Both the position numbers and the translations under genes were made by a program. From NCBI RefSeq assembly GCF_018143015.1, contig NC_054740.1, forward strand, positions 40,744,180-40,808,179: a stretch of 64,000 nucleotides of DNA, given 5' to 3'. The DNA is from Lytechinus variegatus. Taxonomy: Eukaryota > Echinodermata > Echinoidea > Temnopleuroida > Toxopneustidae. Position 1 is the stretch's first letter. Each line of letters starts with the position of its first letter. This document shows positions 8,291-59,560 of this stretch, piece by piece. The notes below the pieces were generated by a model. It made no database searches. It had not been told where the DNA came from and was given only the letters and a program-made list of their open reading frames with translations.

Positions 8291-8533
8291 AGGGTAGCCA
8301 CTTCAGTTCCGAAAAGTTCTCCCAGCGGGCCCTGATCTTAATTATTACCCCGGCTTTAGCTTGGCTTTAGCATGCATGGAATTTCTTCCTACCGGTTACC
8401 CATTCACCTCACCTGGGTTGAGTGCAGCACAATGTGGGTAAATTTCTTGCTGAAGGAAAACACCCCATGGGCAAGGAATCGAACCCACGTCCCTCAGACG
8501 AGATTCGTAACCACTAGACCACGACGCCCCCAC
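8291..8533 (-). mobile_element. tRNA-derived SINE (GGCGTCGTGGTCTAGTGG family)
   Basis: Read on the minus strand, the right end begins GGGGGCGTCGTGGTCTAGTG (A-box-like), followed by GTGGGTTCGATTCC (B-box-like) and the family body: CAGCAAGAAATTTACCCACA, then a CCCAGGTGAGGTGAATGGG-like segment. It shares this body with copies at 38081, 40957, 41960, 49541 and 53163. The 3' part is diverged. Not a functional tRNA. Confidence 0.85.
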
Positions 8534-30726: not shown

Positions 30727-30940
30727 AGGAGTTCCTTCCTACCAGGCGCACCCAAACCCAGGTGGAGGGTGGCAAATGTAAATCAACGGCTTACCTAAGA
30801 ATGCAAGTGCTGTGGTGGAATATGAACCCTGGACGTAAATAAACAGCTTACCAAAGAATGCAAGTGCTGTGGTGGAATATGAACCCTAGACTTTGTAGTC
30901 CAATGCCCAGCGATTTATTGACTGAATGGCCCACAGCATG
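30727..30940 (-). mobile_element. Diverged tRNA-SINE fragment with internal duplication
   Basis: A 57-bp unit containing AATGCAAGTGCTGTGGTGGA occurs twice in tandem (about 30793-30905). On the minus strand the B-box-like GGTTCATATTCCACC and an A-box-like region follow each other as in tRNA-derived SINEs. Confidence 0.45.
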
Positions 30941-33079: not shown

Positions 33080-33415
33080 ACCTCTGACCTCTCGTATGAC
33101 CTATGCTGTGTGAACTCTCTCACAAAAAATTGAACTCACTGCTACATATATTTGACCTATGACCAGTACTTTAGTGCACTGTCCTATAACAATGTGACCT
33201 CTGACCTGCACTTGAGTGTACTGTCCGGCAAAATTTGACCTCTGACTCGCAGTTGAGTGCACTGTCCTGCAAAACTTGACCTCTGACCTGCACTTGAGTG
33301 TACTGTCCTGTAAAAAGAATTGACCTCCGACCTGCAGTTGAGTGTACTGTCCTGCAAAACACTGACATCTGACCTGCAGATGAGTGCACTGTCCTGTAAA
33401 AATTTGACCTTTGAC
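33080..33415 (-). repeat. Tandem TGACCTCTGACCTGCA array
   Basis: Six or so units of about 42-50 bp, each with TTGACCTCTGACCTGCA followed by GAGTGYACTGTCCTGYAA. The array lies just downstream of the WDR17 stop. Two overlapping minus-strand frames (140 and 72 codons) come from the repeat and are not genes. The repeated RGGTCA half-sites are discussed in the findings. Confidence 0.85.
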
Positions 33416-33474
33416 CCCTACACTGTTCATCCTTGGAAAGAGAACTGTGCTGAAGATTGAATCTATTATAATCA

Positions 33475-36400
33475 TTAGAAAGGATTGATGGGCCTTCCTG
33501 ATCCTACCGGTGAGAACATGCACACTTTAGCCCACATGAGGGCACTGTTCAGTGATATCACAGACTTTCCATCATCCAGGAAGAATGTAGGGCCCTGCAT
33601 AAATGGAGAAACAAGTGTTAAAATACACATTGTTAAATCTTGTTTACATGTAGATGTAAAACCTGTAGTGACCAATTTCAGAGAATCCAATCATTAAAAT
33701 CTTGATTTTAATGAAGTATTACAAAGTTTTTTTTCATATATCTATTTGTTACAATTTCTCTATAAAAAAAATACATGTAGAATGCGTGAATTTGTTATTT
33801 CAATTTAGAGCCAGATAACACAATTCTTTGTCATGCGATCTCTTTAAATATATACAGGCAAGGTCATATGTCAATGATCTTCCTCATCAGATCACCTTTA
33901 ACAGATATCTGAGGTCAACCTGCATCCTTTTGACATTCAACAGAAAAGGATGAAAATCTGAATGATTTGGGAGACCCTGTCACAAAAACATGACCTGCTT
34001 CAAGGTCAAAAGTCAATGACCTCCATCAACTTATTGGTAATACATGTAGATACATGTACATGTAAATAGATCAGATATTTCATTCATTACCAGCCTGTGT
34101 CCTTTTGCCAGTCAGCAGATAATCGGTCACTGATGACACATATACGATATTTCATTCATACTAACCTGTATTCTTTTGCCAGTAAGCAGACAATGGTGCA
34201 CATCTGAATGAGTTGAGGAGATGCAAAACTGTCATGAGGTAATGACCTTCTTCAAGGTCAAAGGTCAATGACCTACCTCATGAATTTCATTAGCAATAGA
34301 TATATTGCTCTTCATTCACTCTGACATGTATCCTTTTGCCAGTCAGAGTAGAATGATGAACATCTGAATGAATTGGAAGGTACAATACAGTCACATAGTC
34401 ATGACCTGCTTCAAGGTCAAAGGTCAATGACCTACATGTACCTCCTGAATTTTATTGATAATAAATATCAGATATTTAATTACAACTGACCTGTATCCTT
34501 TTGCCAGTCAGCAGAGAATGGTGAACATCTGAGTGACTTGGGAGATGAGAACCTGTCACAAAGTCATGACCTGCTTCAAGGTCAAAGGTCAAAGATTCTC
34601 CCCGTCGTATAAGATTGCGGTAGAAGTCTTCTTGGAGTGGAGTTGGAGGGGCACATTTGGTATGATCAACACTGTTCAATTTGAACCATAAGGAGAAACA
34701 TGAAAACCAACACAGATGAATGATGCTAACATTATTGATAACATATAGTTTGCAGCTTTTCAATTCATCTGACATACTCTGTCAAATATAAACATTATAT
34801 TTTATTAAAGAGTTAGCATCAAGAGCTCTACTCTTGTTCAATAATGTAATGTTGCATTTATGTACCCAAAGGGGCCATTCTACTATCACAATCTAAACCC
34901 ATATTGAGAGCGGGATAGGAATTGGTTGAAATCGGGAACAGCGTAATAACAATGTTGTGAAGATGGAGGTAACAGAGGGCATTTTATTTAGATCGGCGTG
35001 ATTGTCTAAACATTTTGAAAATGTTCAAAATTTCATGCCGATCTTCCTGATCAGAATGCGCCCATGTTGAATCATGGGGGAAGCAGGAAAAGCGTAAGAA
35101 GCGCGGCGCGCAGACGTAATGAATCCCTGTTCCTTTGGAAAACTAAAAAAAAAAATTTGCTGGCTCCCCGTAAAATGGTTCATTATCCCCCCCAACCCTG
35201 CCTGATCTGGAGGTTTGCTAAATCATAGCCAAATCGGCATAATGGAACATGGGCTTACGATTAATTTTCGTAATATCTTCTCTTTTCTGTCAAGCTTATT
35301 CATGAATTGTGAATGCATCTTGTGTCACAAAATTGTACTCTTATCTTTTAATAAGTGGAAACATAACTTTTGATTTGAAACATGAATTACTTTTGAATAT
35401 ATTCATTTTGAAACATGAATTACTATTGAATATATTCATTTTCAAACATCAATTGATTTCAAGTTTTAAAGTGTTTGTAAGAATATATATTATATGCTTC
35501 ATGAACCTACCTACCTCTCTCCCTAAAAAAAGGAAAAATAATGAAAAAAATAATTGTAAAAAATACTAACAATGGTGAGTTATTCCTACCTTACGTTAGT
35601 CCCAGATACAGCATTCCATGCTTCTAATTCAGTCTGAACAAGAGGGTCTGAAAGAGGGAGATCTGACCCAAAGCCACCTTCCCTGATAAGCCTCAATGCT
35701 ACACTGAATAGATGGGCAACTATAGAACGGTAACCCCTTCGTATAGCTACTAGAGCTCCAACATAGCAAGACAAGATGACCAACTCACATCGCTGCCTGA
35801 AATACAATAAGAGAAACCTCATAAAGAATATTGAGTACTGTATCATAAGGGCTTCATGGAGTAACAAATGACTATACATGTAGATCTGAAAAAGGAAGGC
35901 CTGATCTAAATCTACCTTCCCTGATAAGCCTCAATGCTACATTTAATAGATAAGCAACTATATAATGTGTCCCCTTCGTAAAGTTACTAGAGCTCCAACG
36001 TAGCAAGAAAAGATGACCAACTCACAATGCTGAGTGAAATACAAGACAAATAATATCAACATTTTATCAGGGGCTGCTCCATAAACCTCCAAAGGTCTCC
36101 AGATCACAAAACTTTCTGAGATTCAAATTTTAATTATATTATCTCTTGGGGCCAAAACTAGCCACTTTACCAGGGATATGTTGTGATACGTGTTTCACTA
36201 AGTTGTTTGTAAGTTATGGGTGTCTAGTCGATGCATGTTCTGGTTGTTTAAACAGTTCCTAAATCACTACGTCCCATTAACTTACACTGAAATAACGTTT
36301 CCATTAACGGGAATCTTTGTTGTTAAAAACAGTTCACTTCAAAGTTGATTATTTGTGCAAAATCAATTAAGGTTTGAGAAACTTCACTCCCACTTTGTTA

Positions 36401-39400
36401 AAATACTGATAAATGTTCTAAGTATCACTCAGGGCATGCGGACACACTGGAATGCAAACTTTTATACTAGAAGTTGCATATTGAAGATAAACTAGAAATA
36501 TCACTGAAATAGAACGATACCCCCGCCTATGTCACTACCATGATAGTGGAGTGTCCACCTAGTGTCCAACATACGAAAGTCTGTGAAACCAAGATTGTCA
36601 TTATAGCATCGTGAATCTAGGTGGCACAGTAACATAAACTGAAATTTGCAAAATCGTGAAATCTAATCTGAAAAAGGATCACACTGCCAACACAGACAAG
36701 CACATGTGGGACAATGTATCACAATTGCTTAGAAATATACCTGGCATTTGGCTCAAATCCCATGCTTATTTTGCTAATTTCTCAGTAATTACACAATTTC
36801 TTCCAAAATGATTCAGCACTTAGCTTTTGTATGCAAATGGATGCTTGGGTGGTCATTTTATTGGATTCTGTACAAACCCAATTTTGAAATCATTACCACA
36901 GCTGGCATTTGTTTCCAAGCAAAGATGGGCATTGTTTGCAAAAAGGACTTACTGAGCGACACTCTGCATCATGATCCTGTCTGTCCTTATACAGCCCATT
37001 AATTGCAGAAGGTCGTAAACATCGCCAACGACCCAGTCAGACTGATTCATTTTTCCTGAAAAAAACATCAAAGAATTTGAAAAAGGGGAATTTTGAAAAT
37101 GAGATACAAAATACACAAACATGCCTGAAGAAGCCTTGATACAGCACACATGTAATATTATAACAAAGCATGACAAATACCAAAACATAATAACATAAGC
37201 ATATTATGTACATGCACCATGTGTTAATCTACACAGGAGTCTAGCGCTCTCAAGTTTAACTCATTGAATGCTTCGTGCACGCTACGTATCCTACTATAAC
37301 ATGCCACACTCGTGCTCGCACGCCTACTATTGATTGCTTTGTGCTTGCATTGTTTCCTACCCTCGCCTGCTTCGTGCATGACTGCGCACATTTGGAATTA
37401 CGATCATTGTTACGCCGTTTTGCATTGTATTGCGCACCACATGCACGCCGTAATTAGCACTATTGTGTGCAGTGCGAACTCTGCTTTCTGACAGATCAAC
37501 TTACTCACGCGGCTTACATTCGACTTTTTCGAGTATTTCTACATTTTTTACAAGATATGGCTCCGCCTCTGAGAGGGAAGAGACCTAGGTTTTTTGATCC
37601 ATACAAACACTCCACAAAATGGAACAACTTGATACAACTCATATTTTAGCGGTAAAGATAATAACCAATCCATATAATGAGGACACCATTATAAGGGGTA
37701 TGAAATTTCCTACAACTTTACTACACAATATTTTGTGGATAAACTAATCGTTAGAGAGTTACAAGCAATTATAATCATGACTATTGAAAGGAGTGAATAC
37801 GACTCGCGATCCCAAAATCAATGTGGCACAGGGGGGTTTTGTGGCTGGCACAGGGGATTAGCATCGGATTAGCACTGTGGCGTTGGGTTAGTAGTGTGCG
37901 TGGCATGTTAAGAGTTAATGCTACATGTAATTAGTCTGCAGCAGACAATGATTTCATGAGAAAGTATTTGAAATCAAGGTTACTTGTTAGTCATCATAGA
38001 TCTGGGTCATTTGAATTTACATCACCCTAACTCTGTAAAACCATAATATCCAAGCTGTAAAATAACCACACTATTATGAAGGCGTCGTGGTCTAGTGGTG
38101 AAGACTTCCGTCTTTCAACCTAAAGGACATGGGTTCGATTCCAAGCCATGGCGTGTTTTCTTTTAGCAAGAAAATTACCCACATTTTGCTTGCACTCAAT
38201 CCTGGTGAGGTAAATGGGTACCTGGCAGGAAGAAATTCCTCAAAGAGCTTTACACACCGGAATCGGTAGACTAGCTTAGCCGGGGTAATTATAGGAGCGA
38301 GCGCCTTGAGCCCCTAGCAAGGTGGATACGTGCGCTATACAAATCCTATATTATTATTTAAAAGACAAGCACATGTGAGGCAGTTTATAATCCTTACTCA
38401 TAAGAATACCCAACACCTGGCTATAATGCAATGTGTACTCTGTCCATTTCTCAGCCATTACACATTATCTACCAGAATATCTAGCAAAAGCCATATTTCT
38501 CATTTATACATACAAATACTTAAGTGGTTATTCTATTGGACACTGTTCAGATAACCACCACAAATCATTTTCAACAAGCCATTAACATGCATTTTTTGAT
38601 CCTCCCAACAATGATAATTGTATTACATGTGATGATGATGACGATGATCCACAGCTCTTACAATGCGCCATATTTCTCTTAAAAACAATCATAGGCGCAG
38701 GCTCATCCAATTAAGCTAATTATTACACATCTGCTGAAATAAGTTAGTTTCGAGAGACAATTTGAAGAGTTCAATGTTCAAATCATCTCTCAAAACTTAC
38801 AGTGCCGCTCACGGTAAACTTGATACTATGGTTTATCACGTGTTTAACTTCGATCACCACAGAGCATAAGAATGTTTTCATCTTGGAGTCAAAATTATTA
38901 TAACCAGAAAATAAAATTCATGTTCAAGACTTTATAAAAAGAATGCAAAAACTTACTTCTGACTTCAGGGAGACCCACAGACATGGCAGCCTCTGGTGTA
39001 GAAGAGAGTAGATAATAGCATACACCCTCCCTCACATTCCCTGCATCTAACAGGCTCTGGGCCTTCACTTTGCAATCTTCCAGAGGGGGGAAACCCACCT
39101 GTTGGATCAACAAAACAAAATTGTGAACACAGACTGAGGTAGATGTTGAACTAAAATTCATCAGTTTGAGTTTGAGAAAGAGAGAAATAAGCAAAGGGGA
39201 AGAGGGAGAGAGAAGAAGAGAGAGAGTAATGGAAAGAAAGAGAGGGAGAGAGGGGGTATGTCCTCCAAATAGAAAGAGAAAATTGAGTGAGGTAGAGGAA
39301 AAACAGAAAGTAGTGAAGAAGAGGAGGGTGACATGGAGAACATAGAAGTCAAAATACTTTCAATTATGATTGACACTACATAAAGATATGAATATCCTAT

Positions 39401-48000: not shown

Positions 48001-51000
48001 GTGACAATCTCTTGCCATGGTCTCCTGGCGATCACTCTCATCTGTGATGACATCACCAGTGATGTCAGAGACCAGATCCTAACGGTGGAATCCCTTGAGC
48101 AGGATGCGAGTATAAAGGGTCTATTGGGATGCATGGCTAGACCATACACATCAGCACCATGATCTAATACCTTATCAACACATGCACCATCCCTGTTTAA
48201 TAGGAAAAGGAACAGAATATGGTAAAATTAAATAAACAAATCAAAAAGGAAATATTTCTTTATTCTAAATGCAGCCATACCTGCTAACCCTCAAACTGAA
48301 GAAAGTTTATTTATTATTTATTTGTCTTACTTTAGTAGGGTGGCTCCATCAGTAATTGGCAAACATGAAATCAGAAGAGAAAATGAAACAACACAAAGGG
48401 CCAGTTTATTGATTAAGGCTATTGTATCAGACTGTGGCTGAATATATGGAGATTACCAAATTTCCTATGTACATGTATATTGATACAGACAGATTATTCA
48501 CAGGAATAGTTGAAATGACCCTCTTTCTTCCACAATCTCTGTGAGTGAAAGAAGCAGGCAATACTTTTTTTTATTTTTGGGGGACCTATGTACCGTTTGA
48601 AATAAGAGGGCAATTGCTGATTTTTTTATAGTGTAAGGGCCACATTTTGCACAAGAAGGAATTATGTGGGAAGTGCAAATATCATTATTCTGCCATATGT
48701 AGAATATCGATTCTCTAAACACCCTTGAATATTGTTTGCAGCAGAATCTGGGGCAACTTTAGAAAGAAAAGTTGCCCCAAAATATTTGATTTCGGAAATT
48801 TTAGGGGTGACTTAGGCTGGGATGAGGACAAAAAGGCAGAATCACCCTCATCTTACACTGAAAATAAATACAGTTTATTTTTGAAAAAATTAATAAACAT
48901 TTCAAATACAGATTTCTTCAATTTAAATGCAAGTTAATGACCCAATGGAATCATATGTTCATTTATTTTGATGCAATTCATTTTGTGAACCTTTCAATTG
49001 TCTGCTCCAGGAAAGTAAAACACTGTTTGACTTCTCATGGACAAATTAAAATTATAATGGATCTAAAAATGAAACATACATAGAAGAACCAACAACCATT
49101 TAAAGTTTATGACATCATAAGATCAAAAACTAACATATGGTCCGTTGGTATGCTGATTTGAAGAAACGATACAAACTTTAAAATCATCCAACTTTCAATC
49201 ATTCCTCAAATTTGAATGAAAATGTACGGTAAGTTTTTCTTTTTTTATTTTCCATGTTTTTGTCCATAATCTTGGTAGAATACTTCTTAATAGATGGCAC
49301 TTTATACAGTTGTGGTAAAAGTTGTGAACCCCACCACATATTGCACCATATCATGCCAAGAGCTGAATGTGAAGAACAACACTCCAATGTTTGGCAAGCC
49401 CAGAGAAACAAACTTCATTGAATGTAGTAGTTTATCACCTGACATCACAATTAAATCCTAAAACATGGCAGAACTTGAACACTTTAATAGATATGCCCAT
49501 TTTCTGGTGGGGTTCACTAATAAAAATAATAATAATATAGATATATTTACCCAGGAAGCCGCTTCAGTTCCGAAAACTGTTCTCCCAGCGGGCCCTGCTA
49601 TTATTATTACCCCGGCTTTAGCTGGGCTGCCTAGGCGCTCAAAGCATTCAAGGAATTTCTTCCTACCGGGTACCAATTCACCTCACCTGGTTGAGTGCAG
49701 CACAGTGTGGATAAATTTCTTGCTGAAGGAAACTACGCCCTGGCTGGGATTTGAACCCACAACCCTCTGTTTCAAAGTCAGAAGGCTAATCCAATGGGCC
49801 ACAACACTCCACACTAACCTTTGAGCACCACTGTAAATGCCTACAAATATTACTTCTACAACCAATGAATCCATCATCCTACCTGGTATCCCATACTCTA
49901 ATAGTGTAATCCCACGAGCCCGAGATGAGAAGATAGGGTATCTCTGGATTCCACATTAGCCCTCTCACATGAGCACCATGACCTACTAATATGTTTACAC
50001 AGCTATCCTGAGTATAGTCCCATATACGTATTGTCCTGTTATGGCAACCACAGAATTCAAGAAACAAAAAAAAAATCATGAACCATTTAGGTTAAAACTC
50101 TCATCATTCATTATGAACAGTATGTTCAAATAGAAAAGGAGTCTACATTAAATACATGTAAGACATTAAAGTACTATTAGGAAAAGGTAATTGATTCAAA
50201 GTCGGGTGGAATTTATAAAACAAGAAGTCACAATAGCTTGGTATAAAAAATCCCCACATTAATCATGACAGAGAGAATGTTCAAATGAACAGACGTCTTC
50301 TCATATTAATTTGCAGACATTTTTCTAGGTACTATTAGGAACATTTAATTGTTTCAAAGTCGGATGAAAAAAGCAATTACAAAGCCTGGACTCTCAGCAT
50401 GTTTGAAGAGTGTCATGATTAATGGCCAAGACAGGGTGCAAATTACCACATTTGTGCAAACAAAGGTATGATTAATTGCTCAATTAGAAAACTTGTAAAC
50501 CTGGACCCAGTCTCATGAAGAGATGCGACTGATTCAAATCAATCTCAAATTGCTATTGTCCCACAATTGTGCAGTTAAAAGGAAAACCCATCACCAAAAA
50601 ATTGGTTTTAGATAAATATTAAAAAAATAAACATTTCTTGAAATTTGGATGTATTTTTTTCCTCAAAAATGCTGCTTATCTTTAATTTAAAAAACCCTCT
50701 ACATTTAAAACAAGCAGGACAATATACAAAAAAGGATGATAGATAAATAAGAAACCAAGTGACCTATAACCAATTAATTGTTGTGTTATCGAACGCTTGG
50801 CGATCATTCATGGGCCCTTATTCTGAACTCTGGTTGAACTTAAACCATGGTCTACAGCGGCAGTTTAACTATGGGAAGCAAAATGTGACATCAATCTCAC
50901 AAATTAGGTGATCAGTTTATCAAATTTTGCATTCAAAATTAATAAGAAACCCAGTGACCTATAACCAATTAATTGTTGTGTTATCAAACGCTTGGCGATC

Positions 51001-54000
51001 ATTCATGGGCCCATATTCTGACCTCTGTTTTAACTTAAACCATGGTCTACAGTGGCAGTTTAACTATGGGAAGCAACATGTGACATCAATCTCTCAAATT
51101 AGGTGATCAGTTTATCAAATTTTGCATTCAAATCATAAACAAATTTCTCAAAATAATGAATACATGAACATTAGTTTTCTTCTTTGTTTAACCACCAAAA
51201 GGATCCCAGTAAACACAAGAAGCAGTACAGTGTTAACAAGTATTTTACTCTCGTAACTTCCCATAACTTTTAGCCTTGACTTGGCCTCGGTTAAACTAGA
51301 CTGTAGAATACAGATCACGGGGTTTGATTTTTACGAATGATCAAACACAATAATGGATGCAATCAAACCTAGAAAACAGCCCAACAATCAATCGCTAGGC
51401 TTTATGTTACAGACCCCTGATGTAAGTCCCTTCATTAAGACAGGGTCTTGTACCTTCAACCCTGGACTCCGTAACATAAAGCTCTGTAATTGATCATAAG
51501 GCTGATATCTATGATTGATAATACACAATAATCAATGCAATCAATCATAGAAAACAGCCTAATGATCAATCACTAGGCTTTATTGCAACATGGCCCTGTA
51601 CTCACCCGTCATCTGAGCCACTACATAGTATACCATCTCTTAAAGGAGACCATCGTACATGGAATACCTTAGCTGTATGACCGGGGAAGGTTTTTAATGG
51701 TTGCTCGTTGGCCGTTGCTATGTAATATACTCTTACCTTGCCATCGCCGCACCCTGTGGCAAGCATGTCTCTGAATAGAAAAAAGAAAAATTATGTCCTT
51801 ATTGGTATCATCATCATCATTATCGTCACCATCGTCATCAACTCCATCATTTCCATCATCTTCATCATTTCCATCATCTTCATCATCACTGTAATCATAG
51901 TCATCACCACAATCATCATTGTCATTATCATCATTACCACCAACATTATCACCATACATCATAGTCATCACCGCCATCATCATCACCACCATCATCATCA
52001 TTACCATCATTATCCATGTCATCATCATCATTATCATCATTGCAATAATCGTCATACTTAATAGCATCAGCACAGGCATCATAATCATCATAGAAACCTC
52101 TAATTTTATCATCTGTCATCATGTGTTGTTTTTTTTAAAGTAAGCATTCCTATCTACAGTAAGAAACTCACTCAAACCCCCACTTCTACCTCTCTCTACA
52201 TTATCCCTAACTCGGTCCCCTCCCCCCCCACTTTCCTAATGCCCCTTTCTAATCTATTTGTATGTGAGTTTCCTAGGTGTGACTGTCGCTTAACCATCAT
52301 TCTTACTTGTTATTAGGACTCCAATCGCATCCAAACACAGCTGATGGATGCCTGTATCTCTGCAGCATTTTCCCATCAATCTCACGAACAATACTGTCAG
52401 TTAAACATATCATATCAAAATAAAGTAAAACTGCTTTATTGATCACTTTTATAGTAGACAAAGTGGATACACAATCAGCAGTGCACTGTTCAGTGTCGAA
52501 AATACAAAGCTGATTATTTGTTGACCGTCTTTTAATTTCCCCCTTTCGTAAGCGCAGCTTTATCGCGCAGTTTGACCCATCACAAGAAAGGTAGCAAATT
52601 CTGGTACCTGCCTGTGTAGGGCTTCCACCGCAAGAGCAAAATTAAACACATTTCAAAACTCAATCGTGCTCAATGTCGCATTTGCGATGCTGTAGGTCAT
52701 ACATGTAAAATCTTAGCTAATTGTGTTTGCAAATGTATCTTCTTTTTTTGCCTTTCAATTTTCCTCCCAATCGGATCTGGAAGACTTTTACTTTTATGAC
52801 CGGGAACGAGGAACATTGAAAACACCTTTTGTTTCTCCAATATCCATGTATTTTAATAGTATTTTCAATCATGATTTATGTTGCTATTTCAATTTGAAAA
52901 TTGACAATTAACAAACCTAATACACCAATGTGGTACTAATAGACCAACTACCTTTAGACCAAAGTGAACATAGACCAAATATTTTAGTCTAAACACTATT
53001 GGATGCGGCTTACCAGTAGTTATCAGCTCCACATGACGCAACTCTTCTTGAGTCTTTATGGCACCATGCTACAGAGTAGACACTAGTTCGTCCATGCTAT
53101 TAGAGAGGAAAAGATATGGTATGGAAACTACATTTACATGTAATGTCATGAATTGATATACTACAGTCGAGTGGTTTTGACTCTCGCCTTTCAAACCAAG
53201 GGACGTGGGTTCAAATCTTCCCAATGGCACATTTTCCTTCAGCAAGAAAATTATCCACACTGTGCTGCACTTGACCCAGGTGAGGTAAATGGGTACCCGG
53301 AAGGATTAATTCCTTGAATGCACTGAGTGCCGGTGATGGTAGCTCGAGCTAAAGCTGTCCTCAGGCAAAAAGCACTATATAAATCAAGCTATTATTTTTA
53401 TCATTATTATTAAATTACCATAATTAAAGTTATAATAACAAATGTACAATTTTCGTAACAAATTATTATTAGCCAATCAAATTGAATAATTTCAGTAGCA
53501 TTTTAATCATTGCAAATTTATGACAAGTTATATGAATGCTTCCCTAATCTAAATGTAGATCTACCACGATATAGTGGCTTGACATAGAGTTTAAATACTT
53601 TCTCATGAAACAATTCTTTGTTTTAAATGTCAAGTCAACCCCGAAAACAATGTTGATTTAAAACAACAGAGAAAAATCAAACAAGGATATCGCTGAAAAA
53701 TTCATCAAAATCGGACATAAAATAAGAAAATTATGACATGTTAAAGTTTTGCTTATTTTTCACAAAACAGTTCATGCTTAACCCAATAATATGCAAATGA
53801 GAGAATCGATGATGTTCCTCACTCATTATTTCTTTTGTTTGAATTATACAATATTTGAATTTTTACGGAATTGACAATAAGGACCAACTTGATCAAAACA
53901 TAAACTATTATAACAAGGGTAATTCAACATGTTCAGGGAAGAATTAATCTCTGTTTCACATAACAATGAGGAGAAAATTAGAATGTTTCATATTTCATAT

Positions 54001-58291: not shown

Positions 58292-59560
58292 TGTTAGGTG
58301 TCATAAGAGAGTTTTGCATGTAAACTTTAAAGTTGACCTGAAAATGACCTTTGACCTTATCATGTGACCTCCGACTGCAGCATAACATGCAGGTCCCCCA
58401 AGCCAATCCACCATCGAAGTTTGGTTGAAATAAAACTTACGGTTGCGGAGTTAGGGGTCATAAGAGAGTTTTGCATGTAAACTTTAACGTTGACCTGAAA
58501 ATGACCTTTGACCTTATCATGTGACCTCCGACTGCAGCATAACATGCAGGTCCCCCAAGACAATCCACCATCCAAGTTTGGTTGAAATACCACTTACGGT
58601 TGCGGAGTTAGGCGTCATAAGAGTCTTGCACGTAAACTTTAACGTTGACCTGAAAATGACCTTTGACCTTACCATGTGACCTCAGACTGCAGCATAACAT
58701 GCAGGTCCCCCAAGCCAATCCACCATCCAAGTTTGGTTGAAATACAACTTACGGTTGCGGAGTTAGGTGTCATAAGAGAGTCTTGCATGTAAACTTTAAC
58801 GTTGACCTGAAAATGACCTTTGACCTTACCATGTGACCTCCGACTGCAGCATAACATGCAGGTCCCCCAAGCCAATCGACCATCCAAGTTTGGTTGAAAT
58901 ACAACTTACGGTTGCGGAGTTAGGTGTCATAAGAGAGTCTTGCATGTAAACTTTAACGTTGACCTGAAAATGACCTTTTACCTTACCATGTGACCTCAGA
59001 CTGCAGCATAACATGCAGGTCCCCCAAGTCCATCTACCATCCAAGTTTGGTTGAAAAGTGACTTACGGTTGCGGAGTTAGGTGTCATAAGAGAGTCTTGC
59101 ATGTAAACTTTAACGTTGACCTGAAAATGACCTTTTACCTTACCATGTGACCTCAGACTGCAGCATAACATGCAGGTCCCCCAAGTCCATCTACCATCCA
59201 AGTTTGGTTGAAAAGTGACTTACGGTTGCGGAGTTAGGTGTCATAAGAGAGTCTTGCATGTAAACTTTAACGTTGACCTGAAAATGACCTTTGACCTTAC
59301 CATGTGACCTCAGACTGCAGCATAACATGCAGGTCCCCCAAGTCCATCTACCATCCAAGTTTGGTTGAAAAGTGACTTACGGTTGCGGAGTTAGGTGTCA
59401 TAAGAGAGTCTTGCATGTAAACTTTAACGTTGACCTGAAAATGACCTTTTACCTTACCATGTGACCTCAGACTGCAGCATAACATGCAGGTCCCCCAAGT
59501 CCATCTACCATTCAAGTTTGGTTGAAAAGCGACTTACGGTTGTGGAGTTATGTGTCATTA
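58292..59560. repeat. 157-bp tandem array, about eight units
   Basis: The string GCAGCATAACATGCAGG recurs at 58377, 58534, 58689, 58846, 59003, 59160, 59317 and 59474, so the period is 157 (one unit is 155). Units are highly similar; each contains TTGACCTGAAAATGACCTTT, and some read TTGACCTT where others read TTACCTT. Minus-strand frames of 72-77 codons are repeat shadows. Confidence 0.97.

Follow-up and report, generated by a model that had tools for sequence, protein, structure and literature searches.

The intron that adjoins exon w21 of a minus-strand gene, which we take to be WDR17, holds an array of repeats that quite probably arose from w21 by one duplication crossing the exon/intron border, followed by amplification and neutral decay. 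The window (the whole stretch of 64,000 nucleotides that was analysed, C1:40744180-40808179) also contains an upstream part of the gene encoding WD40 repeats, and the Pfam WD40 cut-off was passed by two of the five pieces searched. The C-terminal piece had no Pfam match and only two weak matches in the PDB, both to designed proteins, and a pattern scan of bacterial and archaeal genome contigs returned 80 matches with no relative among them. WDR17 is discussed in PMC4773986.

The minus-strand frame of w21 is open throughout and runs in phase into the terminal exon, w22. Its donor was read from the sequence as CAG/GTCAGT, with the GT at 34490-34489, and the position of its acceptor was inferred from phase. 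The intron separating w21 from w22 is about 896 nt long, and the array takes up about 70% of it.

Layout of the array

A direct-repeat search, TRF and self-BLAST all put the unit at about 165 bp, and TRF counts 2.8 copies of it in the array (score 504). The self-comparison of 33400-34800, proposed by an earlier reading of this DNA made without database searches (hereafter, the sequence-only reading), gave a best match of 220 bits, whereas none of 200 dinucleotide shuffles exceeded 29.2. That reading had placed repeats of w21 in the next intron, and they are found there, head-to-tail, as the exon parts of units U2, U3 and U4 (Table 1) plus a short remnant of exon sequence in U5 (about 34095-34121). 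It had also called the copies partial, which stands: in the alignment, the larger ones run from the last ~105 nt of w21 through the donor region into intron sequence. Its view that the exon as such was copied does not, as the duplicated segment crosses the border. Both TRF and the alignment give a tandem unit of ~165 bp spanning the exon/intron border, and no copy comprises the whole exon with both splice sites, the acceptor and the first ~76 nt of w21 being absent from every extra unit. Start-to-start spacings, earlier put at roughly 120-220 bp, are 165, 160, 71 and 175 bp, and truncated U5 has a part in the last two. The two strings quoted as shared with the exon are exact in w21 and U2 but altered in the other copies.

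Table 1. Exons, array units and related features of the window
Feature	Position	Strand	Description	Basis
Exon w20	35590..35796	-	Open frame	Limits inferred from phase and splice consensus
Partial copy of w20	35885..36044	-	Decayed; upstream of w20; 84% over 161 nt	Alignment
Exon w21	34491..34671	-	Likely source; 1 nt + 60 codons, phase 0 end	Open frame; splice sites read from sequence
Unit U1	34431..34595	-	Duplicated segment: last ~105 nt of w21 + ~60 nt of intron	Unit alignment
Unit U2	34272..34430	-	Exon part 34326-34430, open frame of 53 aa, donor CAT/GTCAGA; intron part	Alignment
Unit U3	34125..34271	-	Exon part 34166-34271, 1-nt insertion, donor CAG/GTTAGT kept; intron part shortened	Alignment
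Unit U5	34020..34124	-	Truncated: exon tail only (ends ~34095); intron part with an extra stretch	Alignment
Unit U4	33879..34019	-	Exon part 33920-34019, 5-nt deletion, weak donor CAG/GTTGAC; last intron part	Alignment; far limit approximate
Array edge	33859..33878	-	ATCATTGACATATGACCTTG; unit homology stops beyond	14/16 nt match the exon's TTGACCTTTGACCTTG
Exon w22, coding part	33475..33594	-	Terminal exon; phase 0 start, TAA end	Limits read from sequence; matched by protein query

Decay of the copies

Changes unique to one sequence were counted over the 97 gap-free columns of the exon part, in which 4 further columns vary otherwise. The exon itself has one, at a third codon position and synonymous, as against 8 in U2, 8 in U3 and 10 in U4; 12 of the 26 in the copies lie at third positions (5, 4 and 3, as raw counts). 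This disparity agrees with the earlier proposal that w21 was the source and that the copies decayed beside it, and w21 is most likely the source exon. The three larger copies are about equally decayed and form no series of stages; with 8, 8 and 10 unique changes there is no gradient, and the claim that many stages of decay had been caught is not borne out.

All copies had been described as frame-disrupted, which is incorrect for U2: its exon part has neither an indel nor a stop when set against w21, and the frame is shifted in U3 (1-nt insertion) and U4 (5-nt deletion). The statement that the copy at 34160 (here U3) keeps its donor was upheld. Scored with a weight table, the donors of w21 and U3 both reach 8.64, while those of U2 (3.76) and U4 (0.98) are lower. 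The last exon G ahead of the donor has been lost in U2, and in U5 a GC replaces the donor GT.

Between U2 and U3, 21 of 102 exon-part sites differ, against 18 of 41 intron-part sites. This greater divergence of the intron part is not predicted by simultaneous neutral decay, and speaks against it. The unique changes of the two copies are uneven and do not clearly echo the exon/intron contrast (16 in 97x2 columns versus 8 in 41x2): they number 8 + 8 in the exon part and 7 + 1 in the 41 intron columns, which are few, of uncertain alignment, and include 12 more columns that vary otherwise.

The junction and a founding duplication

In the alignment, U2, U3 and U4 share a single 5' start, GGTCATTGAC, at a place where w21 has GAATCTTTGACC. 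At the other end of the array, the match of the edge sequence to the exon's TTGACCTTTGACCTTG reaches a score not attained once when the 120-nt flank was shuffled 100 times. This match (14/16 nt) suggests a homology-seeded exchange, of which the array edge is the likely intronic partner, or else it may be the stub of another unit. The window has 13 occurrences of the motif TGACCTNTGACC, three of them inside the array (chance 0.03), and 200 kb of sampled sequence has 12, confined to 4 of 20 stretches; when the whole sample was shuffled 20 times, 19 shuffles had none and the other had one. The motif is over-represented but clustered, and the seed of the duplication was probably a short motif over-represented in the genome.

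The junction common to U2, U3 and U4 makes one founding duplication with subsequent amplification the better reading. It is not proof of a single event, since the two motif sites could have exchanged more than once and so remade it. The sequence-only reading had the exon shedding copies repeatedly, and if this had happened at different times the intron part of U2 and U3 would be expected to have diverged more than the exon part, as it has, the exon having stayed constant between events; the junction could have been used again if that motif pair exchanged repeatedly. The one junction common to the three larger copies is nevertheless best read as a single founding event, and the similar numbers of unique changes also weigh against repeated shedding, which we consider improbable.

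For the single border-crossing duplication, we infer one unequal exchange or replication slip, in which an intronic GGTCATTGAC...TGACCTTG site was joined to the similar TTGACCTTTGACCTTG in w21. The resulting head-to-tail duplicate would span the sequence from the middle of w21, across the donor and into the intron; the remaining units would have come from later exchanges among units, and the extra ones would then have decayed neutrally. The gene would tolerate such an array because the first unit retains a complete w21 with its acceptor and donor, and the extra units, lacking the exon's acceptor, would be removed along with the intron.

Distribution of the unit in the genome

A repeat dispersed genome-wide, away from this gene, had been named as the observation that would speak against an origin from the exon. 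It was sought in two ways and not seen. As DNA, w21 had four matches in the 869.6-Mb genome (33 contigs) by a search that skips very common words, and all of them lie in the array; w21 itself is the sole full-length match. A pattern search for TGACCTGCTTCAAGGTCAAAGGTCA, allowing at most one mismatch, also found four matches, again confined to the array; the reversed control had no match. With no unit detected outside the array by either search, and four of four matches inside it in both, a dispersed-repeat origin was rejected. The genome was also queried with the protein sequence of w21 plus w22, which recovered both exons, U2 and a single weak match elsewhere (E 0.47).

The direction of copying could also have been the reverse, with a pre-existing intronic tandem repeat captured as the 3' part of w21. 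The unit contains TGACCTTTGACC, which is over-represented across both the window and the sampled stretches, and both the 5' junction common to U2, U3 and U4 and the few changes in w21, which could reflect constraint after capture, are compatible with such an event. A captured repeat would, however, have to supply a donor in the right phase. Of all the units, the one closest to the common sequence forms an open frame of 34 to 35 codons and joins w22 in phase, and neither genome search found further units; capture appears quite improbable, and copying from w21 remains the preferred direction.

Local duplications elsewhere

The background of local duplication was estimated by sampling ten contigs at two points, 5 and 20 Mb, with a 10-kb stretch at each (20 stretches, chosen by position, not by exons). 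Direct duplicates at a spacing of 40-1000, at least 50 nt long and with E <=1e-6 were counted at any identity. They occur in 13 of the 20 stretches, as 23 clusters covering 5.9% of bases, figures that describe the genome background and not a rate for exons; the window has 8 clusters, covering 7.6%. With local duplicates of any identity making up 5.9% of sampled sequence, the suggestion that such a duplication is rarely encountered is not supported. For a 180-nt interval, the probability that at least 50 nt lie in a local duplicate is 0.073, or 0.059 at identities of 70-90%.

Exon w20 has a partial copy of its own (Table 1), which takes in sequence on the acceptor side and most of the exon's 5' part, with the donor side unmatched. 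The acceptor AG is kept and the frame is broken. This copy would be the mirror-image case, in which the segment covers the acceptor and the 5' exon, and so fits the duplication of border-crossing segments. Two of the 17 listed exon cores overlap duplicates (105 and 150 nt), for which the probability of two or more is 0.21-0.40 at rates of 5-8%; these cores are approximate, were read from frames and need not include all of the gene's exons, and the count used limits for w20 and w22 that are a few bases away from those in Table 1. Such a number is unsurprising against the background and a special tendency of exons to duplicate is unneeded. Border-crossing duplication looks ordinary in this genome.

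Several other repeats were noted in the window. A 42-bp minisatellite of 6.3 copies lies just past the terminal exon (33152-33416) and includes several TGACCTNTGACC, and a 157-bp array of 8.1 copies with 96% matches (58293-59558) also has TGACCTTTGACC. A 195-bp duplication at 50746-51132, with two copies at 95%, is probably young. The repeat at 38081-38351 belongs to a family with more matches at 8378, 40938, 41963, 49602 and 53166, in both orientations and at 73-81% identity. A 57-bp doublet (30778-30891, 92% matches) is situated downstream of the terminal exon, and no reason was found to call it another copied exon.

Predicted effect on splicing

The copies are most likely neutral debris that is silent in splicing. 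Translation that continued past the w21 donor would meet a stop after four codons, and as the copies carry the donor region without the exon's acceptor, and with this stop in place, we infer that they should leave with the intron. Could they instead serve as alternative or cassette exons, or as decoy donors, and so produce or regulate other C-termini? The open frame of U2 and a U3 donor that scores as the real one would allow it, but every copy lacks the exon's acceptor, the stop stands four codons beyond the w21 donor, U3 and U4 carry frameshifts, and the last exon G is gone before the U2 donor. Were w21 spliced by way of the U3 donor, the protein would end before w22. A role of this kind is highly unlikely. 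It is just as doubtful that the U3 donor or the open U2 is used in some transcripts, with duplications of half an exon forming a nursery for alternative C-termini; if it were true, border-crossing half-exon duplications would be a source of such C-termini and not inert debris.

Comparison with known exon duplications

Tandem exon duplication is listed among the routes to new exons in PMC2592719, and has been surveyed more than once. According to the Exonize paper (PMC12343006), which aims at detecting unannotated or degenerate exons, full-exon duplication affects about 4-7% of vertebrate genes, fewer than show partial, inter-boundary or intronic events. For human genes, PMC9013439 counts 4,027 intronic targets, and it refers to a 2002 study that put tandemly duplicated exons in about 10% of animal genes. 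Against this record, the array adds little to what exon-duplication surveys already report.

As in the intronic and degenerate duplicates of the Exonize type, exon sequence is matched here within an intron of its own gene. The array differs from them in having only ~58% of the exon (105/181 nt), several times over, with intron included in the unit. It is also like the tandem exon duplications of PMC9013439 in that homologues of an exon lie head-to-tail in the adjoining intron, but none of its copies is a whole exon with both splice sites. A third likeness is to minisatellite-like local tandem duplication: the array has a ~165-bp unit in tandem, and local duplicates are also seen elsewhere in the window and the genome, but here the unit has one of its ends within an exon. 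The array is a worked example of a local tandem duplication that crosses an exon border without breaking the gene.
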